Origin: a virus
Reading direction: 5' to 3' (one strand)
Virus record (IMG/VR): IMGVR_UViG_3300046810_000071
Span: 1 to 37,869 of that record
DNA length: 37,869 nt
Under the pieces are notes generated by a model. It worked only from the letters and a program-made list of their open reading frames with translations, searched no databases and was not told the origin of the DNA. Shown one piece after another: positions 144 through 33,627 of the stretch (within the stretch, counting starts at the first letter, position 1; the number at the start of each line of letters is the position of its first letter). A program made the translations under genes and the position numbers.

Positions 144-162
144 CCTACTGAAAAGAGTATGT
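144..162 (+). promoter_or_regulatory. Dispersed operator, site 1
   Basis: CCTACTGAAAAGAGTATGT, one of eleven copies of consensus ACCTACTGAAAWGAGTAGGT. It lies three bases upstream of the -35 box of P1, where a bound protein could block or assist RNA polymerase. Confidence 0.8.
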
Positions 163-391
163 GTGCGAGACTTCGGCGCGTATATGCATGGCCGTTACAC
201 CTTTATTTACGCAAAGTAGCGGCCGGCATAACCCAGGGTGATAACCCCAGGTCATACCGGCCGAGCCCCGACACGGTGAGGGAAGCAGGGGGGCGAAGAA
301 ACGCAGTTATCGGGAGAGCGAAGCCCCTGCGCGCCGCCTATCTGAGGCGAACCACCCTGCACCCTTCACCGTGCCGGAGCACGTACTCATT
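163..391. other. Noncoding stretch with an inverted repeat
   Basis: There is no convincing gene between the dCMP deaminase stop at 392 and the operator at 144-162. An imperfect inverted repeat, GGCATAACCCAGGG at 225-238 against CCCCAGGTCATACC at 245-258, could form a hairpin downstream of the deaminase gene or act as a protein site. It lacks a clear T-run for a standard terminator. A plus-strand reading frame across this region has no ribosome site and looks spurious. Confidence 0.5.
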
Positions 392-399
392 TCAGTAGG
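383..399 (-). promoter_or_regulatory. Dispersed operator, site 2
   Basis: On the minus strand CCTACTGAAATGAGTAC. The site overlaps the end of the dCMP deaminase gene: its TAC TGA supplies the last codon (Tyr) and stop. It is followed by the 230 bp noncoding stretch. Confidence 0.75.
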
Positions 400-781
400 C
401 CACAACCACCCGCTTGATGCCCGCCGCAGTGATCAGGGTCGAGCACGCCGGGCAAGGCTTGCGGGTTACGTACAGCGTCGACCCTGGTAGCTCCGCCGGG
501 TCCGCATGCTCAATCGCGTTGCGCTCAGCGTGAGTTGCGGCGCAGTTGGCGTAATCGCTGTCCCGTGCACAGGCATCCACGTCCAGCCTTCCCCGGGGGC
601 AGTTACCGGCGGTAGCACACCCCGGGATCCCGGGTAGCAGACCGTTGTAGCCGACGCTGCGTACCCGGTTCCGGTCGTTCACGAGCACTGCCCCAACCTG
701 GGCCCTTGTGCAGTCAGCGCGAGTGGCGACCACAGCGGCTAGTGCGAGCCCCCACTCATCCCAGCTAGGACGCTCGCTCAC
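392..781 (-). CDS. dCMP deaminase family protein
   Basis: A 129-residue zinc-dependent deoxycytidylate deaminase, which would convert dCMP to dUMP, the substrate of the ThyX encoded just upstream. Visible features are the catalytic HAE motif (His84-Ala-Glu86) and the PCxxC zinc motif (Cys110, Cys113), plus extra cysteines at about 55-71 typical of this family. The GTG start at 781 overlaps the stop of the thioredoxin gene (GTGA), indicating translational coupling. The gene closes a nucleotide-metabolism run (ThyX, CxxC peptide, thioredoxin, deaminase). Length and motif spacing fit the family; substrate dCMP rather than another cytidine is inferred from context. Confidence 0.88.
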   Translation of the reverse strand: MSERPSWDEWGLALAAVVATRADCTRAQVGAVLVNDRNRVRSVGYNGLLPGIPGCATAGNCPRGRLDVDACARDSDYANCAATHAERNAIEHADPAELPGSTLYVTRKPCPACSTLITAAGIKRVVVAY

Positions 782-1014
782 GCACCCACCAGGGCCCGTA
801 TCTGCGCCTCAGTGGCCCCGCCCCGATGCTCGCGGATCACCTGGCCGTACTCGTCGTATACGCGGATCGTGGGAACCGCCCGGATGTCGAGCGCGCGACT
901 ATCGCCAGTCTCTACGTCGACGTACTCGCCAGCCTCCCCGGTCACGCGCTGAAAGTGCGGGTAAGTCTTCTTACAGGGGGCACACCAGGACGCCCCAAAG
1001 AACACCGGCTTCAC
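778..1014 (-). CDS. Thioredoxin-like protein
   Basis: A 78-residue minimal thioredoxin or glutaredoxin. The active site is Trp10-Cys11-Ala-Pro-Cys14, and a cis-proline loop (AVPTI, Pro48) follows at the expected place. It probably works as a disulfide reductant in the cytoplasm, for example for ribonucleotide reduction or a phage enzyme. The GTG start at 1014 overlaps the stop of the upstream 27-residue peptide gene, with GAGGA as ribosome site. It is shorter than host thioredoxins (about 105 residues), as is common for phage versions. Confidence 0.85.
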   Translation of the reverse strand: MKPVFFGASWCAPCKKTYPHFQRVTGEAGEYVDVETGDSRALDIRAVPTIRVYDEYGQVIREHRGGATEAQIRALVGA

Positions 1015-1094
1015 TCGTCATCCTCGCTGTCGTTGATGCATCGCCCGCCACCGCAGTACAGGCAATCGTCGTCGTCTTCAATCCAGCCGATCAC
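1011..1094 (-). CDS. 27-residue acidic CxxC peptide
   Basis: A tiny open frame lies exactly between ThyX and thioredoxin, joined to both by GTGA overlaps: its GTG at 1094 overlaps the ThyX stop and its TGA at 1013-1011 overlaps the thioredoxin GTG. The peptide reads [20 protein letters not shown] followed by NDSEDDE. It has three cysteines (CLYC and GRC) and eleven acidic residues, suggesting a zinc-binding or redox microprotein. The function is unknown. The main evidence that it is expressed is its double coupling to neighbours; it has no independent promoter. Confidence 0.6.
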
Positions 1095-1792
1095 TTGTCG
1101 GCACTCCCGTACGGCGTAGCCGGAACATCCTGGAACGAATTCGGGGCAAGGATCCGCAGGTAGTCGAGCGTCAGCCCCGCATACTCGCGAATCTCAGCGT
1201 CAGCGGCCACGTGCCAGCGCTTCCCGAGGACGTCCCGCCATGCCCGCAGGTTGCCGGTAACCACCATGTCGACCGGGGCGGCATTCGGCAGCACGCTTCG
1301 CGCAGCTTCCCTTGCCTGCTTGCGCTTGAGGCCACGGGCGGTGAGATCCTCGACGAGGAACTCATAGCGCTTGAGCGCATCGGCGTACGCGTTGGCAATG
1401 GCCGTTTCAGCCGGTGTGCCCACGGCCGCAGGCGGAATGACAGGCTCAGTGTCGGCGTAGTTCACGTACCGCTGAGACACGACCGAGAAACTCAGGTGCC
1501 GGTGCCGGGAAAGCTCAGCGAGCAGCGCCCGGGACACGCCCCGTACCAGGAAGCTCACGGAGGCATGCTCAAGCACGCTGTAGTGCCCCTGGGCGAGGAT
1601 GTTGGCCATGTATCCGGCGTTCTCCGCCGTGGCCGGATTGGGGCGAGCGAAGCTCTTGTAACAGAGCCGACCGGCCGACTCCCCCAGCGCATCCGAGTCG
1701 CGAACTTCCTGGTCTCCGATCGCGTCGTATCCGTAAGCGTCGAGCATCACGTGTTCGCGCATGATGGTGTGCGCCAGTACATCAATCCGCAT
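1091..1792 (-). CDS. thyX: Flavin-dependent thymidylate synthase ThyX
   Basis: A 233-residue FAD-dependent thymidylate synthase, making dTMP from dUMP with methylenetetrahydrofolate and NADPH. The signature RHRx7S is present (Arg96-His97-Arg98 to Ser106, then QRY). The start is the ATG at 1792 because GGAGAGAGCCC immediately precedes it; a longer frame to 1975 has no ribosome site. The Shine-Dalgarno is formed partly by the end of dispersed operator site 3, so binding there could affect transcription or initiation. It is the first gene of the run with the CxxC peptide, thioredoxin and dCMP deaminase, a dUMP-to-dTMP pathway. Confidence 0.93.
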
Positions 1793-1801
1793 GGGCTCTC
1801 T

Positions 1802-1820
1802 CCTACTGAAATGAGTACGT
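1802..1820 (+). promoter_or_regulatory. Dispersed operator, site 3
   Basis: CCTACTGAAATGAGTACGT, nine bases before the ThyX ATG. On the coding strand its AGTAGG end runs into GGAGAG, the ThyX ribosome site. Confidence 0.8.
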
Positions 1821-1823
1821 CGG

Positions 1824-2018
1824 CTAGACGTAGGTTTCGCCAGCCAGGAAGCTAGCGAGTTGCAGAACGTCGAACGGCTCGGCGTTCCATTCGTTCTCGT
1901 CATCGTCGAGCAGCTTGCGGGCAACCTTCCAAGCGTCCACACGGTCGGCCATTTCCTCGGCCTTTCGCTGGGCAACGCCCGTCAGCGTCGGTGGCTTGAA
2001 TGCGGGCTCAGCGGCCAC
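1824..2018 (-). CDS. Small hypothetical protein (64 aa)
   Basis: Mostly helical, charged 64-residue protein with no recognised domain. The GTG start at 2018 overlaps the upstream gene's end by 11 bases, typical of coupled phage genes. It lies between the 57-residue gene and thyX in the same orientation. No cysteine motif, signal peptide or membrane segment is seen. Supported by position and tight packing only. Confidence 0.6.
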
Positions 2019-2181
2019 AGTTACCCCCCAGGGTGCGAAGCAGCGGAACGGCCTCGGCGTGCGGGCGGATCACGCTGCTGATGACGTCGCCGTTGGCATT
2101 CGCGGTGACGAATTCGATGCGGCCGGTACCGGCAGGCTGAGTGGTGACGGTGTGGCCCGAGCGAAGGGTGAAGGTGCGCAT
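2008..2181 (-). CDS. Small hypothetical protein (57 aa)
   Basis: Begins MRTFTLRSGHTVTTQPAGTG and is probably a small beta-rich fold of unknown role. The ATG at 2181 is chosen because GGGGAGACACCAA precedes it; the longer frame to 2259 would run back through the early-promoter motif. That motif (2223-2239) lies about 42 nt upstream of the start, so the gene may begin a short transcript running through the 64-residue gene to thyX. Confidence 0.65.
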   Translation of the reverse strand: MRTFTLRSGHTVTTQPAGTGRIEFVTANANGDVISSVIRPHAEAVPLLRTLGGNCGR

Positions 2182-2222
2182 TTGGTGTCTCCCCGGCGTT
2201 GCGTTGGCTTCTGTCGGTGCTG

Positions 2223-2239
2223 GATCGCAAGGGTTTCCC
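2223..2239 (-). promoter_or_regulatory. Early-promoter motif, copy 1
   Basis: Minus strand GGGAAACCCTTGCGATC, one of seven copies, all in the same orientation. It sits just after the HNH gene stop and about 42 nt before the ATG at 2181. Confidence 0.65.
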
Positions 2240-2240
2240 G

Positions 2241-2939
2241 CTAGAAGGTTGCGGCCCACTCAGCGAGGCTCTTAGCGCCCTTGCTCAGGTTGCAGGGTGC
2301 GCAGGCAGGCAACAGGTTGTGCGCTGCGTCAGCCCCACCGCGAGAGATCGCAACCACGTGGTCTAGGTGCTCGGCCGGGTCTCCGCAGTAGGCGCAGGTT
2401 CCGCCGTAGGCAGCGAAGATCTCAGTACGGCTGTAGGGCGCATGGGGCACCCGTGCTTTGTGCGCGCGCCTCGCTGCGCTTGCCCTGTGCCGGACGTCTC
2501 GTGCATTCCGCGCGTAGCAGGCAGCACAGAGATTTTGCAGGTAGCGGCAACCTTGGCGACTCCCGCCGCACGCAGAACACGGGCGCAACCGGTGCCGCTC
2601 CCTTGCCGCTGCTCGTTCCACTTTCAGTGCCTGCGCATCAGCCTCGCGCTGCGCTATCCGTTCCAGTCGGCGGCGCTCACGGCTCTCGATCCACTCCGCA
2701 TGGCAGCGAGCGCAGTGCATGTCTGCATGGGACCCATACGAGCCTGTCTTTCCGGCACGGCCGATGCATCCCAGGGTGGCGCAGTTCCAGAATCCCGACG
2801 TGTCATCTGCGGCGCGCTTGTCCATCGCGGCGACGTACTGTGCGGCGGAACACTGCATGCACAGTTGTTCCAGTGCCCCAGTAGCCGTAGTAACTAGCCC
2901 CACGTATTCAGTTGAACCGCAGGTGTCGCATGTCTTCAT
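2241..2939 (-). CDS. HNH endonuclease with N-terminal zinc fingers
   Basis: A 232-residue protein with several CxxC pairs in the first 145 residues (Cys4/7, 27/30, 76/79, 121/124, 138/141), a basic helical stretch, and a C-terminal HNH nuclease: Cys182/Cys185, HLDH with His191 and His194, Asn208, Cys213/Cys216. The last 65 residues closely match those of the HNH gene at 8575-8997, so the two are paralogues. Free-standing HNH genes of this type are often homing endonucleases. The ATG at 2939 is preferred to a frame reaching 2993 because the early-promoter motif lies in that extension. No good Shine-Dalgarno precedes the ATG, so initiation may be near-leaderless. Confidence 0.85.
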   Translation of the reverse strand: MKTCDTCGSTEYVGLVTTATGALEQLCMQCSAAQYVAAMDKRAADDTSGFWNCATLGCIGRAGKTGSYGSHADMHCARCHAEWIESRERRRLERIAQREADAQALKVERAAARERHRLRPCSACGGSRQGCRYLQNLCAACYARNARDVRHRASAARRAHKARVPHAPYSRTEIFAAYGGTCAYCGDPAEHLDHVVAISRGGADAAHNLLPACAPCNLSKGAKSLAEWAATF

Positions 2940-2949
2940 GCCGGGTCTG

Positions 2950-2966
2950 GATAGCAAGGGTTTCCC
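2950..2966 (-). promoter_or_regulatory. Early-promoter motif, copy 2
   Basis: Minus strand GGGAAACCCTTGCTATC, ending 10 bases before the HNH ATG at 2939. With copy 1 it brackets the HNH gene, so the gene may have been inserted at, or duplicated with, this motif. Confidence 0.6.
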
Positions 2967-2977
2967 GGCACGCGAAA

Positions 2978-3005
2978 GGGCCCCCAGGAACATTCCCAGG
3001 GGCCC
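2978..3005 (-). terminator. Terminator after the sigma-like gene
   Basis: GGGCCCC/GGGGCCC hairpin with further pairing in the loop, followed on the minus strand by TTTC. It lies 20 bases past the stop of the sigma-like gene. Confidence 0.7.
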
Positions 3006-3024
3006 AACTCACCGCAGACGCAGG

Positions 3025-3849
3025 CTAGATCGCGTACGCCTCGCTGTAGAGGGTGGCAAAGCGCGCCTTGCCCTTGAAGCGGACAACCTTCACCCGGTCA
3101 CGCTGGATGCCGTAGTCAGCCGCGAGTTCATCGTCAAAGTCAATGCCGTACTCAGCAACCGGGTCGATTCCCGTCAGCGCCATGAGAACCGTCCGCTGTT
3201 GGTCGCCCATCTTGTTCAGCGTGTCGTGAACCTGCGTGGTGGTCTGCTTGCGGGCGGCCTGGTTGTAGTCGGCGGCCGTCAGCATGTCCTCGGGGATGCC
3301 GATGGTGCTGGCGATGTTCGCGCCGACCGTCGTGGGCTCGCTGTCGTCGCTGCCACCGGCCGGAGCATCCAAGTAGTCAAGCCCCTGGTACGAGAGCCGA
3401 GCGGCGTAGGCAAGTTCAGCGGACAGGGTGCGGAACTTCCCGCCCATCACGTCGGCATCCTGGACGATCTGCTCAGCGGCATACGCATCCCCCTTGGCGA
3501 TAGACACCGCCGCCTCAAAGCGCTGGGCCGTCGCCAGTGCAACCCCGGGGCGAGTCTCGACCTTACGGACGCTGGACATCACGCCGGTGATGGTGGTGTC
3601 TACGAACGTGAAGAACTGGGCCACGCTGTCCCCCTTGAAGTTGGGGAGGGCGGTCCAGATGGCAAGGCGACCTTCCTGGGCCAGATCCTCGGCGAGCGTG
3701 TGGTTGATACGTCCGCTGGTCGTCGCAGCGCGCTGGGCCAGGTAGACAACACGGTCGTCAAACTCAGCGAGGATGTGGGCAAGGGCCGATGCAGACTCGA
3801 TGTCGTTGCCCATGGCGGAACGGATCTGCTCGATGGTGACGTTGATCAT
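3025..3849 (-). CDS. RNA polymerase sigma-factor-like protein
   Basis: A 274-residue protein resembling sigma70-family factors. Residues 55-73 (DLAQEGRLAIWTALPNFKG) match the region 2 pattern D-L-x-Q-E-G-x-x-x-x-W-x-A-x-x-x-F. Residues 214-270 resemble region 4: GDQQRTVL, then an alpha-turn-alpha ending DYGIQRDRVKVVRFKGKARF. Such a protein would bind host core RNA polymerase and direct it to phage promoters; GGGAAACCCTTGCGATC is a candidate target. The ATG at 3849 has GGGAGGGAACCCC before it. A 296-base structured leader precedes it and a terminator follows, so it is probably its own unit. The spacer between the regions is acidic and unusual. The assignment rests on motif recognition only. 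Confidence 0.6.
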   Translation of the reverse strand: MINVTIEQIRSAMGNDIESASALAHILAEFDDRVVYLAQRAATTSGRINHTLAEDLAQEGRLAIWTALPNFKGDSVAQFFTFVDTTITGVMSSVRKVETRPGVALATAQRFEAAVSIAKGDAYAAEQIVQDADVMGGKFRTLSAELAYAARLSYQGLDYLDAPAGGSDDSEPTTVGANIASTIGIPEDMLTAADYNQAARKQTTTQVHDTLNKMGDQQRTVLMALTGIDPVAEYGIDFDDELAADYGIQRDRVKVVRFKGKARFATLYSEAYAI

Positions 3850-4115
3850 TTGGGGTTCCCTCCCGGTTTGCTGCGGCGATGGCTCAGAACTTAGGCGTGG
3901 CCGCTGGCATATGCAATCGACCCTTGCCCCCGTAGAGACCCACGGTGCCGGATCAAGGTTGTAGCTATTTCAAAGGCGTAACGGGGTCTCATCCCTAAGA
4001 TTGACAGGCGAGACCCTTTGGTAACGACGGGGTTACCGAGGATTTGCAGGTTCGAACACTGGTCACCCCGTCAGCTACCGTCCACCAAAAATTTCCTACG
4101 TGTGACCCACCCGAC
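3850..4115. other. Structured leader of the sigma-like gene
   Basis: Noncoding. It holds two hairpins, GGTCTC/GAGACC (3985-3990 with 4010-4015) and GGTAAC/GTTACC (4020-4025 with 4032-4037). Minus strand ACAACCTTGATCC near 3945-3957 is a degenerate relative of the early-promoter motif. No reading frame is convincing. The spacing of hairpins before an isolated regulator gene suggests attenuation or a protein-binding site. Confidence 0.45.
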
Positions 4116-4135
4116 ACCTACTCTTTTCAGTAGGT
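4116..4135 (-). promoter_or_regulatory. Dispersed operator, site 4
   Basis: Complete 7-bp inverted repeat, ACCTACT/AGTAGGT around GAAAAG on the minus strand. It lies 10 bases past the polymerase stop and at the head of the sigma gene leader. Confidence 0.85.
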
Positions 4136-4145
4136 GAACGCAGAG

Positions 4146-5999: not shown

Positions 6000-6025
6000 G
6001 TGCGCCCCTCTCATGCGAACGGGCC

Positions 6026-6045
6026 ACCCACTCTTTTCAGTAGGC
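6026..6045 (-). promoter_or_regulatory. Dispersed operator, site 5
   Basis: Minus strand GCCTACTGAAAAGAGTGGGT, in the gap between primase-helicase and polymerase, 26 bases before the polymerase GTG. Confidence 0.75.
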
Positions 6046-6080
6046 GACCCGTTACCGGTATTTGCGCTTGCGCGCTTGTG

Positions 6081-8519: not shown

Positions 8520-8536
8520 GAGCGCAAGGGTTTCCC
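8520..8536 (-). promoter_or_regulatory. Early-promoter motif, copy 3
   Basis: Minus strand GGGAAACCCTTGCGCTC, in the 91-base gap between the HNH gene and the primase-helicase, about 37 nt before the primase ATG. As at 2223-2239, the motif directly follows an HNH gene. Confidence 0.65.
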
Positions 8537-9169: not shown

Positions 9170-9189
9170 ACACACTCTTTTCAGTAGGT
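9170..9189 (-). promoter_or_regulatory. Dispersed operator, site 6
   Basis: Minus strand ACCTACTGAAAAGAGTGTGT, between the terminator at 9202-9237 and the 57-residue gene, overlapping that gene's start region. Confidence 0.75.
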
Positions 9190-10904: not shown

Positions 10905-10919
10905 GATCGCAAGGGTTTC
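10905..10919 (-). promoter_or_regulatory. Early-promoter motif, copy 4
   Basis: Minus strand GAAACCCTTGCGATC, abutting the stop codon of the nuclease gene and 112 nt before the RDF ATG. The RDF may therefore have its own promoter. Confidence 0.6.
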
Positions 10920-11759
10920 TTAGCGGCTAGCGCGTCGCTGCGTACCCGTCACCAGGTCATCGCCAGCGGACCAAATCGGATCCCCAAGAACCGTCTTGCT
11001 CACGCGCCGGTCCCACTCGAACGTTTCCCGCAGGTGAAGGAACTGGGCGAACACGTCGGCCTTATCGATCCGCACCGGCTTGAACGCGCAGACGTCCGGG
11101 GTGATGTGCAGCACCACGGCGCCGTCAAAGTCGGGCATGGGCTCAGAGGTACCGTCAGGCGCAATGACCCGGTCAGCGTGCGCGTAGGCGCTCATCTGTA
11201 GGGCCACGTCCGGGTAGGTGTTCTTGCCCGTCTTCCAGTCAGCGACCACGAGCGCAGGCTCACCGGCCGGGTCCGGCTTGCCGTTCTCGTCGAGGCGAAT
11301 GCGCAGGATGCCGTCAAACGATCCGGCGTACGCGTGCGTGTCAGACCAGGCCACATCCTCGGCGCGGACTAGCTCGGGCTGGACAGCGTCAAGGAACTCG
11401 CTGAAGTGCCGCTTGTACGGGTCCATATCGCGGGACACGTAGCCGACTCGCTCGCCCCTGATCATGCGCTCGAACATGTCGTGCGCCTCAGAGCCGATGT
11501 CGGACCGCTCCTTGGTGTACCGGCGGGATGCTCCGCTCACGTACTGGACGGCAGCCGCGCGCCCTCCCCGGTCGAGCATCTGCTGTACGAAATCGATCGA
11601 GTCAACAGCGAGCTCGGCAGCCATCTTCGCGGCCCAGAACGTGAGGAACGGCTTAGGGAGCATGCCGACGATGCTGGTCACGCCGGGCAGCTTCACATCG
11701 GGGTTGTCGGTGTTGAAGTAGAAGCGGGGGCCCTTGCCCTCGGTCGTCTTGATAGCCAC
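10920..11759 (-). CDS. PD-(D/E)XK exonuclease (Cas4/RecB-like)
   Basis: A 279-residue nuclease of the RecB/Cas4 type. Key residues in order: GSEAHDMFE (His93), AGSFDGIL (Asp149), VADWKTGK (Asp174, Lys176), and QMSAYAH (Gln188, Tyr192). It probably degrades or resects DNA ends during phage replication or recombination. The GTG at 11759 is chosen because AAAGGGGCCACA precedes it; an in-frame ATG at 11804 lies inside the early-promoter region. The leader resembles those of the genes at 70 and 13822. A ~107 bp duplicated element lies just upstream. No four-cysteine iron-sulphur cluster of true Cas4 is seen. Confidence 0.83.
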   Translation of the reverse strand: MAIKTTEGKGPRFYFNTDNPDVKLPGVTSIVGMLPKPFLTFWAAKMAAELAVDSIDFVQQMLDRGGRAAAVQYVSGASRRYTKERSDIGSEAHDMFERMIRGERVGYVSRDMDPYKRHFSEFLDAVQPELVRAEDVAWSDTHAYAGSFDGILRIRLDENGKPDPAGEPALVVADWKTGKNTYPDVALQMSAYAHADRVIAPDGTSEPMPDFDGAVVLHITPDVCAFKPVRIDKADVFAQFLHLRETFEWDRRVSKTVLGDPIWSAGDDLVTGTQRRASR

Positions 11760-11796: not shown

Positions 11797-11813
11797 GGGC
11801 GCAAGGGTTGCCC
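11797..11813 (-). promoter_or_regulatory. Early-promoter motif, copy 5
   Basis: Minus strand GGGCAACCCTTGCGCCC, the most divergent copy, about 38 nt before the nuclease GTG and directly downstream of the ~107 bp repeat. Confidence 0.6.
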
Positions 11814-12530: not shown

Positions 12531-12557
12531 GGGCCCCCAGTGGTCAACTGGGGGCCC
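12531..12557 (-). terminator. Strong Rho-independent terminator
   Basis: Perfect 11-bp stem GGGCCCCCAGT/ACTGGGGGCCC with a 5-base loop, followed by TTTCTGC on the minus strand. It lies 11 bases past the stop at 12569. Confidence 0.85.
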
Positions 12558-12568: not shown

Positions 12569-13822
12569 CTACAGTCCGGCCTTAAGGGTGGCCAGCTCGG
12601 CGATTACGGCGTCAATCTTGGCCTTGACGCTGTCGCGGGTCTCGGTGTCGTCGCTCTTCACCTTGGCCAGCGCCTTAGCCGCCCGCTCGATGTTGGTCTC
12701 GGCCTTAGTGAAGAACGCGCCGATCGTGTCAGCCGGGGTGGCCGCCTCGCTAGCACCCTCGCCCTCCGCTTCCGACTCGTCACCCTCCGTGTCTTCGTCC
12801 GCGCCGCGAGACTTCTCAAGCTCGTAACGGCTCATCAGCGGCACGCCGTAGTGCTCGGCTACAGCCTCAGAGACCGTCTGCCCCTTGGACTGTTCCGAGC
12901 CCGTGATCAGCTCGAACCGCGCCGCCTCGGTCTCGTTGCTGTCCAGCTCGGTGAGGTACTCCGCGCGGACCGTCGGCATGGCGTTTTGCACGCTCTTCTG
13001 AAGCTTGGCAACGTGCTTCTTGGCTTCGTCCTCGCTCAGGTCGCTGTCGGCAAGGAACAGCTTCCCGGCCTCGCGGTACATGTCCCCGCTCGCGTCCTTC
13101 GCCCCCTTGGACGTGGCCTTGATGTCGGGCACGCCCGTCTTGTCGGTCATCCGGACACGCATGCTCAGGAGGATGCGGGCGATGTCGGTTGCCATGTTCG
13201 AGAACTTGATGTGCGTGCGCACACCCTCCGCGAACAACTTGGCACCCTCGGTGACCAGCTCCGCCACACCCTCGGCCGTGTGGTAGTCCTCGGTCGAGAG
13301 CTTGACCACCTCCGCCTTGACCGGCTTGGGCTCCGGCTTCTCAGCGACCGTCGCAGCGGCCTTGAAGTCGGCGCGGAGATCCTTCTTAACGGCCGTCCAA
13401 GTCTTGTCCTCGTGCTTGCCGCGCGAGGGGAGCGAGCTGATGAGCTTCTCAGTCTCGGTGTTCAGCTCAGCCAGCCCCTCCGTGTTCTCCGCCTCGGCCA
13501 GGCTCGCCGCCCGCTCGATGTTCGCCGCGATCTGCTCAAGCGTTGCGCTGTTGTCAGTAGCTGCCATTTCGCTGTTCCCCTTGTTCGCGGCCCCCCGGGC
13601 GGTGGCCTTGAGGCGTGCCACAATACCGGCGGCGTCAACCTTGGTCAAGTCGGAATCGCCCATCTTGTCGGCCTCCTTTCTGATGACCAGGCACAGCGTG
13701 CACAGGGTCGCATCCGTGACATCCTCAGCGGGAACCGGGTGGGTCAGCTTGGGGCCGCAGATGGAAACGCCGGGCGTGGCGACGATGTGCGGGATCTTCT
13801 TTGCGTTGCGGCCGAACTCCAT
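12569..13822 (-). CDS. 417-aa protein with nested starts; repressor candidate
   Basis: No family was recognised. A short cysteine region near the N-terminus (CGPK, then CTLC) is followed by long helical, charged sequence and an acidic stretch (about residues 345-370). The segment QTVSEAVAEHYGVPLMSRYE could be helix-turn-helix-like. The ATG at 13822 has AAGGGGAGTCACC. Two further in-frame ATGs also have strong ribosome sites: 13663 (AAAGGAGG, 8-base spacing) and 13567 (AAGGGG, 9-base spacing), giving products of 364 and 332 residues. It has its own promoter P2 with an abutting operator, and a terminator. phiC31's repressor also makes nested, co-terminal products and binds dispersed operators; the parallel is suggestive, not proof. 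Confidence 0.7.
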   Translation of the reverse strand: MEFGRNAKKIPHIVATPGVSICGPKLTHPVPAEDVTDATLCTLCLVIRKEADKMGDSDLTKVDAAGIVARLKATARGAANKGNSEMAATDNSATLEQIAANIERAASLAEAENTEGLAELNTETEKLISSLPSRGKHEDKTWTAVKKDLRADFKAAATVAEKPEPKPVKAEVVKLSTEDYHTAEGVAELVTEGAKLFAEGVRTHIKFSNMATDIARILLSMRVRMTDKTGVPDIKATSKGAKDASGDMYREAGKLFLADSDLSEDEAKKHVAKLQKSVQNAMPTVRAEYLTELDSNETEAARFELITGSEQSKGQTVSEAVAEHYGVPLMSRYELEKSRGADEDTEGDESEAEGEGASEAATPADTIGAFFTKAETNIERAAKALAKVKSDDTETRDSVKAKIDAVIAELATLKAGL

Positions 13823-13828
13823 GGTGAC

Positions 13829-13864
13829 TCCCCTTGTCGCTGTTGTCGTGCTGACGAGTAGAAC
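13829..13864 (-). repeat. Duplicated 5' leader (copy 2)
   Basis: Minus strand GTTCTACTCGTCAGCACGAC followed by AACAGCGACAAGGGGAG, nearly matching the leader at 76-110. It runs from the -10 box to the Shine-Dalgarno. Confidence 0.7.
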
Positions 13865-13892
13865 GTTACGACGCGTCGAGGGGCTCGCACAA
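13863..13892 (-). promoter_or_regulatory. Promoter P2, sigma70-like
   Basis: Minus-strand -35 TTGTGC (13892-13887), 18 bp spacer, -10 TAACGT (13868-13863). Organisation matches P1 at 140-111. Operator site 7 lies just upstream of the -35 box. Confidence 0.6.
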
Positions 13893-13895
13893 CCC

Positions 13896-13915
13896 ACCTA
13901 CTGAAAAGAGTAGGC
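13896..13915 (+). promoter_or_regulatory. Dispersed operator, site 7
   Basis: ACCTACTGAAAAGAGTAGGC, three bases from the -35 box of P2. It and site 1 are the only copies with a recognisable sigma70 promoter next to them. Confidence 0.85.
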
Positions 13916-14567: not shown

Positions 14568-14583
14568 GACTGCAAGGGTTTCC
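14568..14583 (-). promoter_or_regulatory. Early-promoter motif, copy 6
   Basis: Minus strand GGAAACCCTTGCAGTC, overlapping the stop of the lysis gene at 14583 and about 40 nt before the dNMP kinase ATG. It marks the border between late lysis genes and early genes. Confidence 0.65.
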
Positions 14584-14771
14584 TACGCGCCGAGGAACAG
14601 ACGCACCACCTTTACGACGTCGTCCACGGGGAATCCCGGGAAGTAGCGGGACATCAGCGGAAGCGCCACCAGGACACCCGCCGCAATCTTCCGCCGGTTG
14701 CGCCAGACATACGCCCCAGCGTCTAGTGCCATCTGCTTTAGCGGACCGTTCATCGCGCTGTGGTCACCCAT
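14583..14771 (-). CDS. Small membrane protein, holin candidate (62 aa)
   Basis: Begins MGDHSAMNGPLKQMALDAGA; residues about 34-49 (KIAAGVLVALPLMSRYF) form one membrane segment, with charged flanks. Size, location just below the amidase and the neighbouring coiled-coil membrane protein suggest a holin or accessory lysis protein. The ATG at 14771 is chosen for GAGGAGCAGC upstream; the frame to 14849 has none. A second ATG at 14753 could give a dual-start product as in some holins. Confidence 0.65.
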   Translation of the reverse strand: MGDHSAMNGPLKQMALDAGAYVWRNRRKIAAGVLVALPLMSRYFPGFPVDDVVKVVRLFLGA

Positions 14772-15937: not shown

Positions 15938-15957
15938 GAGTGTCCTTTCATGATGGA

Positions 15958-16002
15958 GCCCCGCCGGGCACCTACTCATTTCAGTAGGTCGCCCGACGGG
16001 GC
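15958..16002 (-). terminator. Composite hairpin enclosing operator site 8
   Basis: A 12-bp GC stem (15958-15969 with 15991-16002, one mismatch) is continued inward by the 7-bp operator palindrome, giving about 19 bp of near-continuous pairing around GAAATG. It lies between tail spike and endolysin. No T-run follows, so it may act as a weak terminator, an RNA processing site or an operator held in a cruciform. Confidence 0.65.
15970..15989 (-). promoter_or_regulatory. Dispersed operator, site 8
   Basis: Minus strand ACCTACTGAAATGAGTAGGT, a full-consensus copy, 33 bases before the endolysin ATG and nested in the composite hairpin. Confidence 0.85.
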
Positions 16003-16020
16003 CAGGAAGACGGGGGGTGC

Positions 16021-24405: not shown

Positions 24406-24425
24406 ACCTACTGAAATGAGTAGGT
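24406..24425 (+). promoter_or_regulatory. Dispersed operator, site 9
   Basis: ACCTACTGAAATGAGTAGGT, full consensus, one base past the tail terminator stop and 25 bases before the major tail protein ATG, inside the late operon. Confidence 0.85.
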
Positions 24426-25540: not shown

Positions 25541-25551
25541 GGGTGTAATCC

Positions 25552-26459: not shown

Positions 26460-26473
26460 CGTCCGTTACCCCC

Positions 26474-26668: not shown

Positions 26669-26670
26669 AC

Positions 26671-26856: not shown

Positions 26857-26883
26857 CGGGTAGAACTCCTTTGGTAGGGGCCA

Positions 26884-26910
26884 GGGGGAGAGACATAGCG
26901 CCTCTCCCCC
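26884..26910 (-). terminator. Hairpin after the major capsid gene
   Basis: Nine-bp perfect stem GGGGGAGAG/CTCTCCCCC with a 9-base loop, 16 bases past the capsid stop. It may reduce transcription of downstream genes or protect the capsid message. There is no T-run. Confidence 0.65.
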
Positions 26911-26925
26911 AGACATCAGCGCAGA

Positions 26926-27783: not shown

Positions 27784-27812
27784 GCGTCAATCCTTTGCGT
27801 GTAGGTGCGTTC

Positions 27813-28457
27813 TCAGCTGATGCCGAGAATGCTGTTTAGACGTCCATCCGCCTTAGCCTTGACAATCTGTGCAGGGGTCATCCCGCGCAGGTCGTCACTT
27901 GTGAGCTGAGAGGGGCCAGCAGCCTTGCGCGCCGCACCACCATCACCGGTTCCCTGAAACCTCTTAGCCTTTGAGGCAGCGAGGTGAGGCTTACGGGTTA
28001 GAACTTCCTGGATTGCGTCCGCGATCTCGTCGGCGTCAACGTCGCCGTTTTCGTCAACCTCAAAGGCGGTGAGATCCAGGTTCAGAAGAGCGTCGGAAAC
28101 GTCAGCGAACTTGCCAGCGGCAGCCGCCTTAATCTCCGAACGCAGAATGCGAGCATTGGCCTTAGCCATCGCCTCGCTCGCCGCCTGAGACTTAACAGCC
28201 TCAAGGTCGGGGGTTTCATCAGTGGACGCAGGCGCCGCAGACTCAGCTAGCTTGCGCTCAAGCTCTCGCCGCTGGTCACGCTCCGTCTTCCACTTAGCCT
28301 TCATCGAATCGAGAGCACGCTTACCGGCATCCCCAAGAGCGTCGGCGCCCTCCGGAGTGGCGTCGGTGTCTGCGGTGTCGGTGGTCGTGGTCTCGTCAAC
28401 CGTGGCCGTGTCGTCAGCGTGGCTGTCGTCCGTGGTCACGTCGTTGTTTTCGGGCAT
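27813..28457 (-). CDS. Capsid scaffolding protein
   Basis: A 214-residue protein. The first 45 residues are Asp/Thr-rich and acidic, residues 50-110 are coiled-coil with many Lys, Arg and Glu, and the C-terminus is basic (KPHLAASKAKRFQG), a usual coat-binding tail. It directly precedes the capsid gene. The ATG at 28457 has GGAGGAGCTTTAGC. Confidence 0.85.
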   Translation of the reverse strand: MPENNDVTTDDSHADDTATVDETTTTDTADTDATPEGADALGDAGKRALDSMKAKWKTERDQRRELERKLAESAAPASTDETPDLEAVKSQAASEAMAKANARILRSEIKAAAAGKFADVSDALLNLDLTAFEVDENGDVDADEIADAIQEVLTRKPHLAASKAKRFQGTGDGGAARKAAGPSQLTSDDLRGMTPAQIVKAKADGRLNSILGIS

Positions 28458-28503
28458 GCTAAAGCTCCTCCATTGCGGGGGTTAGTTGTCCGGGCCTTGC
28501 GCC

Positions 28504-29463
28504 TCAGACGATGTAGCCGTGTTTCTTCAACAACCGAATCTGTAGATCGTGGTCGTTCTCGGCTAGCTTCATGATTTCCTCGGGCATAAGCCGAGGCGTG
28601 CGGGAAATCTCGTAACGCTTCCCGGGTACCTTTTCGAAATCCCGTAGGCGCCTGCCAGCGATACCGCGTCGAGTCGTACCCTCGGTCGTGGCCTGAACCT
28701 TGTGACCGTACGCCGTAGCCGTGCCCATCCCCCGGCGCGCGTTGACCACCTGGCCTATGTCGGCGCCATTGGCGATTGCTTCCGCCCCAGCTTCGCCGAA
28801 CGTCGAGATCCGCTCCGCCGTCGACATCTCAGCGAACATCGCCTCAGGCGACGCAGGCTTAGGCCGGTGAAACTTGGTCACCGGCTCCATCGTGCAATCA
28901 CAGCGCGGGTGCCGCTGAAAGGCTTCACTGATGCCGTACTCAACCCCCGCCAGGAGGATGCAGCGCGAACACGCCGGAGACTCAACAACGCGAATGTAGG
29001 ACGTAACAGCCGGGCGGGCGATCATCCCCGTAAGGTCCGCCTGACGGCCGATGTCGGCAATCTGCGTACGCACCAAGAGATCCAAGAACGCCTGCCCGGA
29101 CGCAAGCGCGTAGACCAGCGACATGCCGCGAGTCAGCGCATTCACGGCCGTCCACGCCGGGTACATCAACAGGTTCGGTAGCGGGCGACCGTCAGCGGCA
29201 ATACCGGCGAACATCTCAGGGACGATGCTCCCCTCGCTGTCGATGTCGCCGAGGATCTGGGCTAGGAACGGGTCGGCCGCTTGCGCTGCCTCGTACTGCC
29301 CGTCTGCGATCAACTCAGCGACTACCGGCACCATCCGGGCCCACGAGTCAACAATGTTGTTCTCGTCGACCCGGGACCAGAAACGCGCCGTGAGGCGAGC
29401 CACTCGACTAGCCAGCGCGCCCCGTACAACCTGATGGGCAACGGCTAGTTGAGTGGCAGCCAT
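28504..29463 (-). CDS. MuF-like minor capsid protein
   Basis: A 319-residue head morphogenesis protein. The conserved MuF-type zinc pattern is present: ESPACSRCILLAGVEYG (Cys165, Cys168) then RHPRCDC (His185, Cys188, Cys190). It follows the portal gene as expected. The ATG at 29463 overlaps the portal stop (TGATG); GTG at 29466 is an alternative. The start lies within operator site 10, and no good ribosome site is seen apart from coupling to portal translation. The C-terminus (RRGIAGRRLRDFEKVPGKRY) is basic. Confidence 0.85.
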   Translation of the reverse strand: MAATQLAVAHQVVRGALASRVARLTARFWSRVDENNIVDSWARMVPVVAELIADGQYEAAQAADPFLAQILGDIDSEGSIVPEMFAGIAADGRPLPNLLMYPAWTAVNALTRGMSLVYALASGQAFLDLLVRTQIADIGRQADLTGMIARPAVTSYIRVVESPACSRCILLAGVEYGISEAFQRHPRCDCTMEPVTKFHRPKPASPEAMFAEMSTAERISTFGEAGAEAIANGADIGQVVNARRGMGTATAYGHKVQATTEGTTRRGIAGRRLRDFEKVPGKRYEISRTPRLMPEEIMKLAENDHDLQIRLLKKHGYIV

Positions 29464-30911
29464 CACGTACTCATTTCAGTAGGTGCCTGCGGGGCGTGCG
29501 TCATCAGCGCAGTAGCTGCCGCGATGGGATCTAGCTGCGCCTCCCGCTCCCGCATCTTGAGCATGTCGACGATTTCGGTAGGCGTAAGGCCGTACTTAAG
29601 CGCGATCCACTCGAAGGGGAATCCGATCTGCTTGAGCTTGAGTAGCGCATCGGCTAGCTGCGAGTGCGATCGTGATTCGGCGTCGGCCCAGAGAACGCGG
29701 CCACCAGCGATAGCGTCCGCCTTAGCGTCGTTGCCCTGCGCAAGCGCAACCAGGCGGAACATTTCGCGTAGTGCCTGCCCAAACCAAATCTGCTTTTCCT
29801 CGACCCGCTTAACCAGGCCGGTTTCGGCAGCTAGCAGAGCGTCGCCGCTAATGTTCGTCATCTTGCCGGAAAGGTAGTGCTGAGGCGTACGCGTCTGCGC
29901 GGCAATGTGGCCTACGGCAACCTCAATAATGTTGCTGTACGCCTCAAGGTTCGCGGCTGTCCACTCGGTAACCTTCACGTCGTCACCGGTGAAGAACATC
30001 ACTCGGTCAACGGCAAAGCGTTCAAGGTCGACCGGACGCGAACCGACGATCTGCCCGTTCTCGCCCAGGATCGGAACTTCCGGAACCTCAGCGCCGAGGA
30101 CGATTCGCTGCGGGAACGACGCGTAATCGCTGGCCGTGAACAATTGCGCCCACAACAGGTTTACCGCATCCTGCATAGCAACCACGCCGGAGACATCCGA
30201 TATGGGATCCTCGGCGAGCATGGGCCGGTTGGGTAGCTCGATCATCGGCACAAGGCCCATGGGGTTTTCCTGCGGATTGGCGTCATCGCCCGTGTCGCGC
30301 AGGTCCCAAACCTTCAGCTCGTCGTCAACCTCCCGCATCTGCGGCGTCTTGCCAGTCAGCGCACCGAGGGTTGTCTGAGTGAACTTCCAGACCTCATCCG
30401 GGAGATACAGGGTCGCGTGCGTCTCACCCCCGTCCTCCCACATCTTCAGTGCCGCGCGCCTACGCCTACGTGAACCAGGCTCATAAGCGATGATGCAATG
30501 CGCGGCATCCTCGAAGGTGACTTCCGGCGTGTCGTCATCGTCCGGGTTACCCCAAACAACGACGAAGCTACGGCCCGAATTCACCGCTCCGAGGAAGCCA
30601 AGCTGCGAGTCAGCGTCCAGTGCGTTGCGCTGCCAGATACGCCACGACTCGTCATCCGCCTCAGTGGAACCAGCGGGCTGGATACCGTTTACCGTCAGTC
30701 GCTCAACCGGCGAGTCTGACGTCACCTGTACCCAGTTGTCAGAGAAGTTCTTGTATCGGTCACCGTGGAACTTGCGGAACTGCTCAGACGCGAACGTTAG
30801 CTTCTGCTCGCCCCGGTAGTAGTCCTTGTTTCGCTGAATGGTCGGGCGCCGGTTCATTAGCTCGGCTTCCAGCGCGCCGACCAGCGATAGAGCCTGCTCA
30901 AGGGTGGCCAC
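29463..30911 (-). CDS. Portal protein (SPP1 gp6 family)
   Basis: A 482-residue portal: RNKDYYRGEQKLTFASEQFR near the start, FSDNWVQVTSDSPVERLTV, a helical stem region, and IAAQTRTPQHYLSGKMTNIS toward the C-terminus, all typical of Phage_prot_Gp6. It forms the 12-fold ring through which DNA is packaged. The GTG at 30911 has GGAGGATAT. The last six residues, PTEMST, are encoded by operator site 10. Confidence 0.9.
   Translation of the reverse strand: MATLEQALSLVGALEAELMNRRPTIQRNKDYYRGEQKLTFASEQFRKFHGDRYKNFSDNWVQVTSDSPVERLTVNGIQPAGSTEADDESWRIWQRNALDADSQLGFLGAVNSGRSFVVVWGNPDDDDTPEVTFEDAAHCIIAYEPGSRRRRRAALKMWEDGGETHATLYLPDEVWKFTQTTLGALTGKTPQMREVDDELKVWDLRDTGDDANPQENPMGLVPMIELPNRPMLAEDPISDVSGVVAMQDAVNLLWAQLFTASDYASFPQRIVLGAEVPEVPILGENGQIVGSRPVDLERFAVDRVMFFTGDDVKVTEWTAANLEAYSNIIEVAVGHIAAQTRTPQHYLSGKMTNISGDALLAAETGLVKRVEEKQIWFGQALREMFRLVALAQGNDAKADAIAGGRVLWADAESRSHSQLADALLKLKQIGFPFEWIALKYGLTPTEIVDMLKMREREAQLDPIAAATALMTHAPQAPTEMST
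29465..29484 (-). promoter_or_regulatory. Dispersed operator, site 10
   Basis: Minus strand ACCTACTGAAATGAGTACGT. It lies wholly within the portal gene's end and is translated there as PTEMST, so coding and binding constraints coincide. Confidence 0.8.
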
Positions 30912-30934
30912 ATATCCTCCAATGCGGCCACGCC

Positions 30935-32557
30935 TTAGGCAGCCATATACAACGGTTTCTTTTTCAGGAGACCCGAGGCGACGGCATCCGAACGCGCTTC
31001 GTGCGCGAGGACACTCACAACCGCTAGGTCAATCTTTCGGCGGTGCTCAGGCTTAGTGAGCACATAGCGATCCGACGGCCGGGCAGCCATACGCGCGTTG
31101 AACATGTGGCGCTCAGTCTGCTTACAGCCGTCATGCGTAAAGTTGGAATCCTTCTTGATGACGTCCGTCTTAAGACGCTCCGCCGCAGCGTGCATCTGAA
31201 CCGGTCGGCGCGTGTGCCAGCGAATAATGCGACGCTCGCCGTACCGCTCCGCCCACTGGTCAACCTCTGTTTCCCAATACGGCGGATCGCAGTACATGAG
31301 CTTGACGTCATACTTGGCGAACAGCTCGCTAACCGCTGCGTCGACTTCCAGACGCGGAACCTGTCCTCCCCACTCCGCCGGATCCCATACCGTTAGACGG
31401 TTACTGGGGCCGTACGAAGGGGTGAACTGGAAACCTTCCAGGGTCTCAGCGCGAATGCCCGTCCAGTCGTCAGAGTCCGAACCATCGAACCCGAGAACGA
31501 TCGGGATTTTCATCAGCTTGTACGTGGATGGCTTAGGTAGCTCGCGGTCACTCGCGCGCGAGAGCCAGTGGGATGCCTCGATCCAAGAGCCGTGACCGGC
31601 GACCACCCGGTTACCGAAGAACCGTTCAGCCTGCCCGGGGTCGGTCTCTAGTAGCTCTGCCGCCTCGGCTTCAATGGCGTCTAGGTCAATGTGTTCACAA
31701 CCGGCGTAAACAGCGCGATGGATCTTCCGGCGCTCCGCCTTGTTGCGGTAGCTCAGCGTCGGTGGAGCCTGCGGGAAGAACTTGTAGACATCCTCCGCCT
31801 TACCCTCGTACGTGCGCTGAGCCGTCGAGACTTCATCCGGCGCCCATGCGTTCGTGGTTTCCAGCGATCGGCCGGACATACCGGCGAGACCACGACGCAT
31901 GGTTTCGGCGACCTTAATCATCTTGTTCGTCGCTGAATACGTGCCGGTCTCATCCTGAATGGCGAACGTGATGGGGTTACCGAGGCGCGATTGCGCGGAC
32001 GATGTGACCACATCTATTCGGCCCTCTTCGCCGACCTTGACGAACCCCTCGCGGACATTCATCACAGCGCCAAGGGAGCCATGCCGGATCATCGCCTTAA
32101 GCGGCCGGTAGACGTTCGCAACCTGGTCTTCCGAAGTAGCCAATAGCTGAATCAGCGGAGTTGGCTGCGGAAGCGCCATGGGCTCACCAGGGGCGTAGTC
32201 ATACCGCCAGCCACACGGACACCCATGCTCGACACAGCGGTAATACTCGCCACCCTCAGCGAACCCGGCGAACACCGTAGGTCCGGCAGCTTCCGCCAGC
32301 ACAATGGACGCAGCGAACGGGCCCTTACCGCTCTTCTGCGGCATGACCACCTGACCACGCCGGTAGATGTACGCGGCGGAGCGCTGACCCAATTCGGCGG
32401 TAGGCCGGACCGTGTAGAAGTTGGCCGCTACCTCAACCTGCCAGTCCAGTAGCTCGAACGGCTCACCTTGGCGGAATCCATCGGGGATAACGGCGTGCTG
32501 CTGAATCCATTCCAGCGTCACGAGCATGACCCGCTCAGGGTCCACCAGGTTAACCAC
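30935..32557 (-). CDS. terL: Terminase large subunit
   Basis: A 540-residue packaging motor. ATPase: Walker A-like MPQKSGKG at 72-79, Walker B with catalytic Glu QDET at 201-204. RNase H-like nuclease: GFDGSDSDD (Asp358), YCDPPYWETEV near 425, and a C-terminal HRRKIDLAVVSVLAHEA. An unusual Cys/His group (Cys108, His111, Cys113, Cys115) sits between Walker A and B and may bind zinc. The GTG at 32557 overlaps the TerS end by 8 bases, with AAGGTG upstream. Confidence 0.92.
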   Translation of the reverse strand: MVNLVDPERVMLVTLEWIQQHAVIPDGFRQGEPFELLDWQVEVAANFYTVRPTAELGQRSAAYIYRRGQVVMPQKSGKGPFAASIVLAEAAGPTVFAGFAEGGEYYRCVEHGCPCGWRYDYAPGEPMALPQPTPLIQLLATSEDQVANVYRPLKAMIRHGSLGAVMNVREGFVKVGEEGRIDVVTSSAQSRLGNPITFAIQDETGTYSATNKMIKVAETMRRGLAGMSGRSLETTNAWAPDEVSTAQRTYEGKAEDVYKFFPQAPPTLSYRNKAERRKIHRAVYAGCEHIDLDAIEAEAAELLETDPGQAERFFGNRVVAGHGSWIEASHWLSRASDRELPKPSTYKLMKIPIVLGFDGSDSDDWTGIRAETLEGFQFTPSYGPSNRLTVWDPAEWGGQVPRLEVDAAVSELFAKYDVKLMYCDPPYWETEVDQWAERYGERRIIRWHTRRPVQMHAAAERLKTDVIKKDSNFTHDGCKQTERHMFNARMAARPSDRYVLTKPEHRRKIDLAVVSVLAHEARSDAVASGLLKKKPLYMAA

Positions 32558-33008
32558 GGGACACCTTCAACCGGTCAGCGATTGAGGTGATACCAGCAAC
32601 CGGGGCAGCGTCATCCCCAGCGTCAAGCGCGCCGGAACCAACCACCCACTTGTTACGCAGCATCCCGTTAGCGGTGAGGCCCAGCGACTCGCCGTGCATC
32701 TTCACCTGAGACCAGATCAGCGAGGACGACTTAGGAAGCTCCGCGCGGGCGAGTAGGCGCACGTATGCGGCAACCTCAAACTCAAGCCCCATCACTTCCC
32801 ACTGGGCAGCCTGCGGCGTCTCCCACAGACGCTCCCAAACCTCATACTCACGGTCGCTGGGATCAATCAGGGGAAAGGCCGGTAGTGCACCCTCGCGACC
32901 CTCAGCGGGAAGGGTGACCCAGTCAGCGCGGTCGGGCTTTGCCTTGTGGCTCCGGTCCTTACTCGTCGGCACGGGGCCGGAATGCGGACGTGCTCCACCT
33001 CTTGCCAC
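32550..33008 (-). CDS. terS: Terminase small subunit
   Basis: A 152-residue protein with a basic N-terminus (RGGARPHSGPVPTSKDRSHK) and a helical core (YEVWERLWETPQAAQWEVMG). It would recognise the packaging site and load TerL. The GTG at 33008 has GGGGGGTGACTCAGC. The iteron array at 33129-33228 lies 120 bases upstream and is a candidate binding site. Confidence 0.85.
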   Translation of the reverse strand: MARGGARPHSGPVPTSKDRSHKAKPDRADWVTLPAEGREGALPAFPLIDPSDREYEVWERLWETPQAAQWEVMGLEFEVAAYVRLLARAELPKSSSLIWSQVKMHGESLGLTANGMLRNKWVVGSGALDAGDDAAPVAGITSIADRLKVSRG

Positions 33009-33128
33009 GCTGAGTCACCCCCCGTCACTTTTGGTAGTTGATCAAGGTTTTTGAACCGGGCGGATTTCTTAGCGCCCTCCCCCGCGTTCGCCGTCCCCAT
33101 GGTCAAATTAACCCATCCCCACCCAAAA

Positions 33129-33228
33129 CGGACATTGAGGACACTAGGTCAATTCGGACATTGAAGACATGAACCAAATCGGACATTGAGGACAACAAAG
33201 ACTTCAACCAAAACGGACATCAAAGACA
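33129..33228 (+). repeat. Iteron array CGGACATTGARGACA, four copies
   Basis: Copies at 33129-33143, 33155-33169, 33180-33194 and 33214-33228 (the last degenerate, CGGACATCAAAGACA). Start-to-start spacing is 26, 25 and 34. It fills the gap between the HNH gene and TerS, so a terminase-binding (cosB/pac) role is likely. Confidence 0.8.
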
Positions 33229-33600
33229 TCAAGCATCACGATCGTTCCAACCACCAGGCTGCTCGCGTGCAGTGATGCGAGAGTGATGCGCCTTAGTCAT
33301 CGACTGTAGGTTCGCCCAGTCATGGCCACGTGGACCAAGGGGGCCGAGCCCATCAACATGGTTCACCTCAGTAGCCACGGGTCGCAGCATGGGAGACAGC
33401 ACAATGCACTCAGCGCACTCGCAGTAGGGATTGGCTCTCAGATAGGCCAGCCTGGTACGTCGCCATGCACTGTCATAGGGGTTACGCCTAGACGCACGCC
33501 TGAGCACCTGGGCACGCTCCTGACAGCCCTTACAGCGCCCACCCTCGGTCAGCTCAGGGCAACCAGGTGTGGAGCAAACACTCATAGCGCGTCTCGCCAT
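33229..33600 (-). CDS. Packaging-associated HNH endonuclease (123 aa)
   Basis: Zinc cysteines at the N-terminus (CSTPGC, CKGC) and an HNH core: YCECAEC, VNHVDGLGP, WANLQSMTKAHHSRIT. HNH proteins next to TerS assist cos cleavage in many phages, such as HK97 gp74. Unlike the other two HNH genes here, this one belongs to the packaging module. The ATG at 33600 has GGAGCATGCC; the GGAG is formed by the end of operator site 11. Confidence 0.87.
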   Translation of the reverse strand: MARRAMSVCSTPGCPELTEGGRCKGCQERAQVLRRASRRNPYDSAWRRTRLAYLRANPYCECAECIVLSPMLRPVATEVNHVDGLGPLGPRGHDWANLQSMTKAHHSRITAREQPGGWNDRDA

Positions 33601-33607
33601 GGCATGC

Positions 33608-33627
33608 TCCTACTCTTTTCAGTATGT
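33608..33627 (-). promoter_or_regulatory. Dispersed operator, site 11
   Basis: Minus strand ACATACTGAAAAGAGTAGGA. It touches the 3' end of the tRNA-Leu gene and supplies the Shine-Dalgarno of the HNH gene. Confidence 0.78.

Follow-up and report, generated by a model that had tools for sequence, protein, structure and literature searches.

What do eleven near-identical copies of a short inverted repeat do at gene borders spread along the early and late regions of one phage genome? The stretch in question, called the window here, is the whole 37,869-base IMG/VR virus record IMGVR_UViG_3300046810_000071, from a Streptomyces-type phage related to phiC31, and the repeat is ACCTACT-GAAAWG-AGTAGGT (W being A or T). 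A preliminary description of this DNA had proposed a lysogenic repressor that acts at many points, as in phiC31. That proposal has gained partial support from the recurrence of the sites at the same junctions of relatives and from a c-type repressor gene in the window, and sequence comparison makes it very likely that the eleven sites are operators of a phiC31-type immunity system, a network served by a c-family repressor. We favor this reading because eleven sites are found where none is expected, because the window encodes a PF25746 homologue with a site upstream and has arms identical to those of phiC31, and because junctions are shared, operator distances track the repressor, promoter-like motifs lie elsewhere, and stems covary at the primase/polymerase border (9a/11).

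Eleven repeats at conserved gene borders

Each copy carries zero to two mismatches, 100 dinucleotide shuffles of the window yielded zero copies, and the same eleven sites were recovered when any centre and up to three arm mismatches were allowed. The arms form an inverted repeat around a six-base centre, GAAAWG, that is not self-complementary; four sites lie on the plus strand and seven on the minus strand, with W being A in six and T in five. The copies, both orientations and the A/T split had been described correctly, as had eight of the start positions, three others being 1 to 2 bases off. Placement at gene junctions broadly holds, with sites 29465, 9170, 381 and 33608 overlapping gene ends or starts and site 143 near the contig end, where no gene was called. 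The sites are listed below with two matches in relatives (G002 and G006).

143..162, plus strand: operator copy, W=A, between dCMP deaminase and the gp22-like gene across the contig ends; same 22-mer at G002 29774
381..400, minus strand: operator copy, W=T, 3' end of dCMP deaminase, overlapping the stop; same 20-mer at G006 12239
1801..1820, plus strand: operator copy, W=T, immediately upstream of thyX
4116..4135, minus strand: operator copy, W=A, pol/sigma junction
6026..6045, minus strand: operator copy, W=A, primase/pol junction, apex of an extended hairpin
9170..9189, minus strand: operator copy, W=A, 4/5 junction, covering the likely GTG start of the gp5 homologue
13896..13915, plus strand: operator copy, W=A, upstream of repressor c (52/c junction)
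15970..15989, minus strand: operator copy, W=T, at the tip of a long predicted hairpin upstream of endolysin
24406..24425, plus strand: operator copy, W=T, structural module, in an intergenic gap of 46 bp
29465..29484, minus strand: operator copy, W=T, within the last codons of open reading frame (ORF) 29463-30911
33608..33627, minus strand: operator copy, W=A, directly after tRNA-Leu (1-2 base overlap with its end), before an HNH gene

The minus strand carries all window genes used in the analysis; seven of the eleven sites run with transcription, and no orientation bias is claimed. A hand count over the GAAAWG class put the sense orientation at 5/5 long-stem junctions and 4/8 elsewhere, which is not significant. 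Near-invariance of the TACTGAAA half stands as a description. A stronger left half was tried as a feature and rejected: mismatches are more numerous in the right arm than in the left, but not significantly so, in the window (9 versus 4, P 0.27), in the seven contigs of its class, window included (31 versus 19, P 0.12), and over distinct sites (21 versus 16, P 0.51). The suggestion that A and T at W mark two affinities stays unproven, W being identical at 8 of 10 hand-matched orthologous sites of the window and G002 but different at 6026 and 33608, with lineage-dependent usage elsewhere (T in 12/12 sites of G034, A in 8/10 of G006). For the gp5 homologue, the likely start codon GTG (9171-9173) falls inside an operator right arm, so that repressor binding or an arm mutation would involve it.

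Absence of the sites from the same junctions in relatives had been named as telling against operators; a motif scan of relatives found them recurring there. We surveyed 35 genomes or contigs, window included, using conserved genes as anchors and testable genomes as denominators; the genomes are related, and the counts are thus not independent. Sites occupy the 52/c border in 32/33, 4/5 in 27/29, 9a/11 in 27/31 and 11/12 in 30/30, as well as 12/thyX in 20/21 and dCMP deaminase/22 (dCD/22) in 19/19, the last two being wide intervals that are easier to hit. Other borders are rarely occupied (c/exo 5/33, exo/3 4/32, 3/4 1/29, thyX/dCD 3/22), and no testable genome has a site at 5/7 (0/20), a very short interval, or at 7/9a (0/20). 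The single 52/c miss and one of the four 9a/11 misses come from phage Dubu, which has three sites, failed to yield a motif and was kept in the survey. Occupied junctions of the window coincide with those of phiC31, TG1 or G034 at 5/5 among 11 (P 0.0022 each); the remaining eight comparisons gave P values from 0.004 to 0.14, Nesbitt being weakest, all uncorrected. In the near relative G002, hand matching found a counterpart for 10/10 window sites whose region G002 holds; the 9170 region is missing there and was matched in G006.

The candidate repressor is encoded next to one of these sites.

12572..13897, minus strand: repressor c homologue (PF25746), likely starting at Met26, at about 13822

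Its PF25746 match (E 1e-53, 183 bits versus a cut-off of 27) is the sole Pfam match above cut-off. Inspection of the sequence places an internal Met where it is comparable to that for phiC31-type repressor isoforms. An N-terminal Cys/His stretch (H..C..CxxC) spans residues 28-80 of the ORF (13658-13816) and recurs in most relatives' ORFs, not in L214; it is possibly a zinc domain of a longer isoform. PF25746 is encoded by 15 of 18 chosen records with such sites, the three misses being fragments of 8-17 kb. An AlphaFold model built from 13 sequences is mainly helical (mean pLDDT 73, pTM 0.41). Foldseek found no PDB match of the model better than E 0.78, and VIA-align gave no Z of 8 or above, which points to neither a known nor a new fold; against viral models, three Foldseek matches fell under 0.001, all Streptomyces phage proteins and one of them named immunity repressor. 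The phiC31 c sequence itself had two matches in the PDB (E 0.31 and 0.76), neither a DNA-binding protein. Among 34 prophage candidates in genome contigs, none was a relative.

Variable centres and repressor change

The arms of the best phiC31 copies are exactly those of the window; the six-base centre differs, being CACGTG in phiC31 and GAAAWG in all eleven window sites. We count 16 such sites in phiC31, 16 in phiBT1 and 15, with changed arms, in TG1. A pattern scan of IMG/VR with these arms and any centre returned at least 118 stretches, giving a partial list of relatives; many of the AT-rich single matches are probably chance. Among the matches listed, GC-rich contigs with at least two copies carry the centres CACGTG, CAATTG, GAAAWG, AACNTT, GAAATC and AGCGTC. 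Searches that started from the repressor brought in G034, with GAAATG in ten sites and GAAATC in two; G036, with five identical copies of CACCTAGGAAAAGTGTCAGGTG; G037, whose arms read ACCTACG; and G035, with CACGTG.

A tblastn search with the window c protein returned 21 cultured-phage records from 13 phages, and the ten beyond phiC31, phiBT1 and TG1 were analysed, with seed motifs for relatives chosen by hand from repeated words. Rowa, Nesbitt, Shaeky, Shady, Sebastisaurus and RemusLoopin have centres or arms of their own, and Shawty, Lilbooboo and Samora have CACGTG. Most relatives fit a 22-bp frame with CACC/GGTG-like ends, which differ in TG1 and the phiBT1 group, and the centres of some are asymmetric. 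The motifs derived for these thirteen cultured phages do not include a GAAAWG centre; CACGTG marks a phiC31/phiBT1 subtype rather than the whole family.

Some relatives carry more than one kind of site. G016 (IMGVR_UViG_3300029951_000076) has nine perfect-arm sites, of which five have the centre AACGTT, three AACTTT and one AACCTT; a single genome can thus mix centres. In G030 (IMGVR_UViG_3300047447_000088), seven ACCTACTCACGAAGAGTAGGT-like 21-mers with up to three mismatches (at 4083, 6914, 8178, 15158, 20974, 34447 and 39663), one base longer and asymmetric at the centre, coexist with four 20-mer CACGTG sites. G012 (IMGVR_UViG_3300046492_000076) has a second palindrome, ACCTACGN6CGTAGGT, at 12554, 23721 and 27536; at two of these positions a main CAATTG operator is 31-32 bp away. 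The palindrome is similar to the principal operator of G037 and is perhaps a site for another repressor.

If the sites are operators, they might be expected to change with the repressor, and there is modest support for this. The comparison covered 29 of the 35 genomes, leaving out Dubu, G001, G006, G010, G011 and G036 (the last five without an anchor protein). Operator distance correlated with distance in the repressor (r 0.57), polymerase (0.53), primase (0.51) and exonuclease (0.58). The repressor kept a partial r of 0.32 given primase (P 0.001), 0.28 given polymerase (P 0.0005) and 0.23 given exonuclease (P 0.01); the reverse partials given the repressor were 0.01 for primase, 0.11 for polymerase and 0.24 for exonuclease. 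In an 18-row repressor tree, the window centre class forms one clade (3 rows, 92/89), sister to GAAATC (100/99), and the CACGTG centre is present in both large clades.

Promoter-like motifs, hairpins and competing explanations

The strongest competitor is the classical arrangement, with a promoter under every site for the repressor to occlude. Another repeated motif, GGGAAACCCTTGC, bears on this. It has seven window copies with up to two mismatches, four of them exact and all on the coding strand; copies occupy junctions where phiC31 carries the repeated motif GGTTGCCGACTCCCTTAC, and we take GGGAAACCCTTGC as a putative early promoter.

2227..2239, minus strand: promoter-like motif GGGAAACCCTTGC, exact
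2954..2966, minus strand: promoter-like motif, exact
8524..8536, minus strand: promoter-like motif, exact, 7/9a junction
10909..10921, minus strand: promoter-like motif, two mismatches, exo/3 junction
11801..11813, minus strand: promoter-like motif, one mismatch, upstream of exo
14572..14584, minus strand: promoter-like motif, one mismatch, upstream of dNMP kinase (52)
34021..34033, minus strand: promoter-like motif, exact, downstream of integrase, before tRNAs

All seven copies are farther than 100 bp from any operator. In the nine further genomes tested, 0-1 of 7-14 copies come within that distance, about the random expectation (the operator list of G029 being incomplete). Operators thus stand mostly between, not on, the promoter-like motifs, which fits elongation roadblocks; as evidence for a block of elongation their position is only suggestive. 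Promoter occlusion is served by the one site upstream of c and by the 9a/11 border of phiC31 and six other phages, where one operator lies 38-47 bp from a promoter-like copy. With several sites inside the late structural block and the two motifs so rarely close together, a count that promoters of other types would escape, we regard occlusion at every site as unlikely.

Some operators sit at the apex of a hairpin, and this raises the further question of whether the sites are primarily RNA elements, that is, intergenic terminators or processing hairpins whose stem-loop is the repeat. A long stem-loop is present at two of the eleven window sites, 6026 and 15970, with weaker ones at 4116 and 143.

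6018..6053, minus strand: hairpin enclosing the 22-bp operator frame, with all seven flank pairs formed (primase/pol, 9a/11)
15957..16003, minus strand: predicted hairpin at the endolysin operator, -41.8 kcal/mol for the folded stretch, one bulge

When flanks were exchanged among the sites of one genome, the native flanks gave extra folding stability at P < 0.05 in 11 of 18 genomes (phiC31 and TG1 0.0002, phiBT1 0.001, G002 0.003); the window sites that stood out were 6026, 15970 and, more weakly, 143. Sorting 412 sites from 28 genomes with at least eight sites by junction, we found a folding gain of -10.5 kcal/mol at 9a/11 (27/27 negative, 25 below -6), -15.9 at MCP/gp37 (11/11 below -6) and -7.3 at 12/thyX (12/20 below -6), and values between -1.3 and +1.0 at 11/12, termL/portal, 4/5 and 52/c. 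Upstream of endolysin the gain is confined to the window (-19.3) and G002 (-16.9), the mean of 15 being -1.9, and the thyX site lacks such a hairpin in the window, G002, G006 and G034.

Covariation of the flanking stem is seen at 9a/11, at MCP/gp37 (the capsid border) and at many 12/thyX borders. For 9a/11, twenty-two of the 27 sequences were used, G014, G021, G023, G025 and G035 having been dropped by hand as identical or nearly so; 95.5% of flank pairs are formed, double changes occur in all seven pairs, and none of 500 shuffles, nor slid structures, come near. Because the flank bases vary between sites, it is the pairing itself that is conserved, as in an RNA hairpin. Frame-adjacent pairing exceeds expectation at 9a/11 (0.95 observed, 0.54 expected), MCP/gp37 (0.99, 0.68) and 12/thyX (0.76, 0.48), shows a smaller excess at dCD/22 (0.54, 0.44) and 11/12 (0.52, 0.42), and none at 52/c (0.46, 0.45), 4/5 (0.49, 0.49), termL/portal or upstream of endolysin. 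Of the twelve terminators deposited for Shaeky and Shady, which are depositors' predictions, only the pol/sigma one in each phage, two in all, has an operator inside it, with a T-tail at its end; the remaining ten hold no operator, three of them (dNMP kinase/c and 4/5 in Shaeky, 4/5 in Shady) ending at most about 13 bases before one. The hairpins at primase/pol and endolysin are probably terminators or mRNA-processing elements of lytic growth, and phiC31 terminators reportedly can lack U tails. As an account of all sites, a primary RNA role is nevertheless very unlikely: at four borders flank pairs do no better than dealt-out flanks, sites stand in both orientations, and of 36 arm-pair departures in the window class only one is a compensated double change, 11 being one-sided G-U and 24 breaking the pair. 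That the sites serve another phage protein in partition (parS-like), packaging or recombination is scarcely credible, for although such palindromes are dispersed over the genome and the phiC31 centre TCACGTGA resembles bacterial parS, the window centre lacks CACGTG, the sites mark transcription-unit borders, one of them at the repressor gene, and operator change tracks repressor change; no search was aimed at par genes.

Several observations weigh against the phiC31-type operator reading itself. The window repressor is only about 30% identical to phiC31 c. Exonuclease, encoded close to c, is as good a predictor of operator distance as the repressor, and similar CACGTG operators accompany repressors that are 76-79% different, so centre and repressor are not tightly coupled. 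For the hairpins, the flank-swap result taken over the whole window misses significance (P 0.20), and a T-tail terminator scan of the window flagged neither hairpin and found terminators no more often than in shuffles. Finally, GGGAAACCCTTGC is a promoter by inference.

The phiC31-type operator reading nonetheless suggests how the system most likely works. In a lysogen, the c-family repressor from ORF 12572-13897 would bind each 20-22 bp site, regulate its own gene through site 13896, and halt transcription at conserved unit borders, early and late, for the most part by standing in the way of passing RNA polymerase (a roadblock) and not by covering promoters. The outer constant arms would be half-sites, and the centre (GAAAWG here, CACGTG in phiC31) the lineage-specific part that likely sets immunity specificity. 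At primase/pol, where the arrangement is widely conserved, and at endolysin, where it is limited to the window and G002, the operator is also the apex of a predicted RNA hairpin, one that would act in lytic growth. We offer only tentatively the broader idea that some operators are dual-coded, as DNA sites for the repressor in lysogeny and as conserved hairpin apexes in lytic transcripts, and that immunity groups diverge by exchanging centres, palindromic or asymmetric, with arms and positions fixed.

Comparison with known immunity systems

The early region of the window resembles that of phiC31, phiBT1 and TG1, with amino acid identities of 68-70% for primase, 58-64% for DNA polymerase, 61-62% for exonuclease and 70-74% for dCMP deaminase, and of 68-69% for ThyX (phiC31 and TG1 only). 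Among head-tail and packaging proteins, the sole match to these three phages is a weak one of the large terminase (about 23%), besides a partial endolysin match. Because it encodes a serine integrase as well as the PF25746 repressor, the phage is taken to be temperate.

34642..36066, minus strand: serine integrase (Resolvase domain), by domain match

The phiC31 gene order continues across window ends 1 and 37869, from dCMP deaminase (392-781) to the gp22-like gene (37290-37712), and given this order the window may be a nearly complete, permuted genome.

The phiC31 sites go by the name "conserved inverted repeats" (CIRs). The window shares with phiC31-type systems a PF25746 repressor, dispersed ACCTACT/AGTAGGT repeats (eleven, about ten or more being taken as the mark of such a system) and occupied early junctions, one of them upstream of c. 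Toward phiC31 and phiBT1 the likeness extends to identical arms in the best copies and to the same borders; it ends at the centre, palindromic CACGTG there versus asymmetric GAAAWG here, and at the 30% identity of the repressors. TG1 has the same junctions and repressor family but keeps the CACGTG centre with changed arms (AAGGCACT...AGTGYCTT). Rowa, Shaeky, Shady, Sebastisaurus, RemusLoopin and Nesbitt, matched through their repressors, have 12-26 sites in one 22-bp frame with other centres, several of them non-palindromic.

The parallel with L5 stoperators (Cluster A mycobacteriophages), also drawn in the preliminary description, is one of function: numerous repressor sites are scattered through the early and late regions and vary with the repressor. 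According to the passages available, the phiC31 and L5 genomes have 18-30 dispersed repressor sites (PMC4557955), and L5-clade stoperators are 13-bp asymmetric, monomer-bound sites mostly oriented with transcription (PMC6550527, PMC9283540). Window sites differ in having inverted-repeat arms and mixed orientation (4/11 oppose transcription). The repressor-stoperator system of Streptomyces phage R4 is alike in being multi-site repression in a Streptomyces phage (PMC10276819).

In the accessible part of the literature we found no description of centre exchange across a repressor family or of operator-hairpin composites; subscription papers lay outside that part, and hairpins that include these repeats may already have appeared in a 1995 paper on phiC31 terminators. 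Within those bounds, the system is a known one, of phiC31 type, and the centre-exchange series and the junction-specific covarying hairpins are the parts we did not find described. The literature passages leave unexplained why phiC31-type phages keep many repressor sites away from promoters. Comparison across the family supplies testable rules on this point, namely fixed junctions, variable centres, and plain versus hairpin-embedded operators, as well as operator-repressor pairs of possibly different specificity for use in actinomycete genetics.

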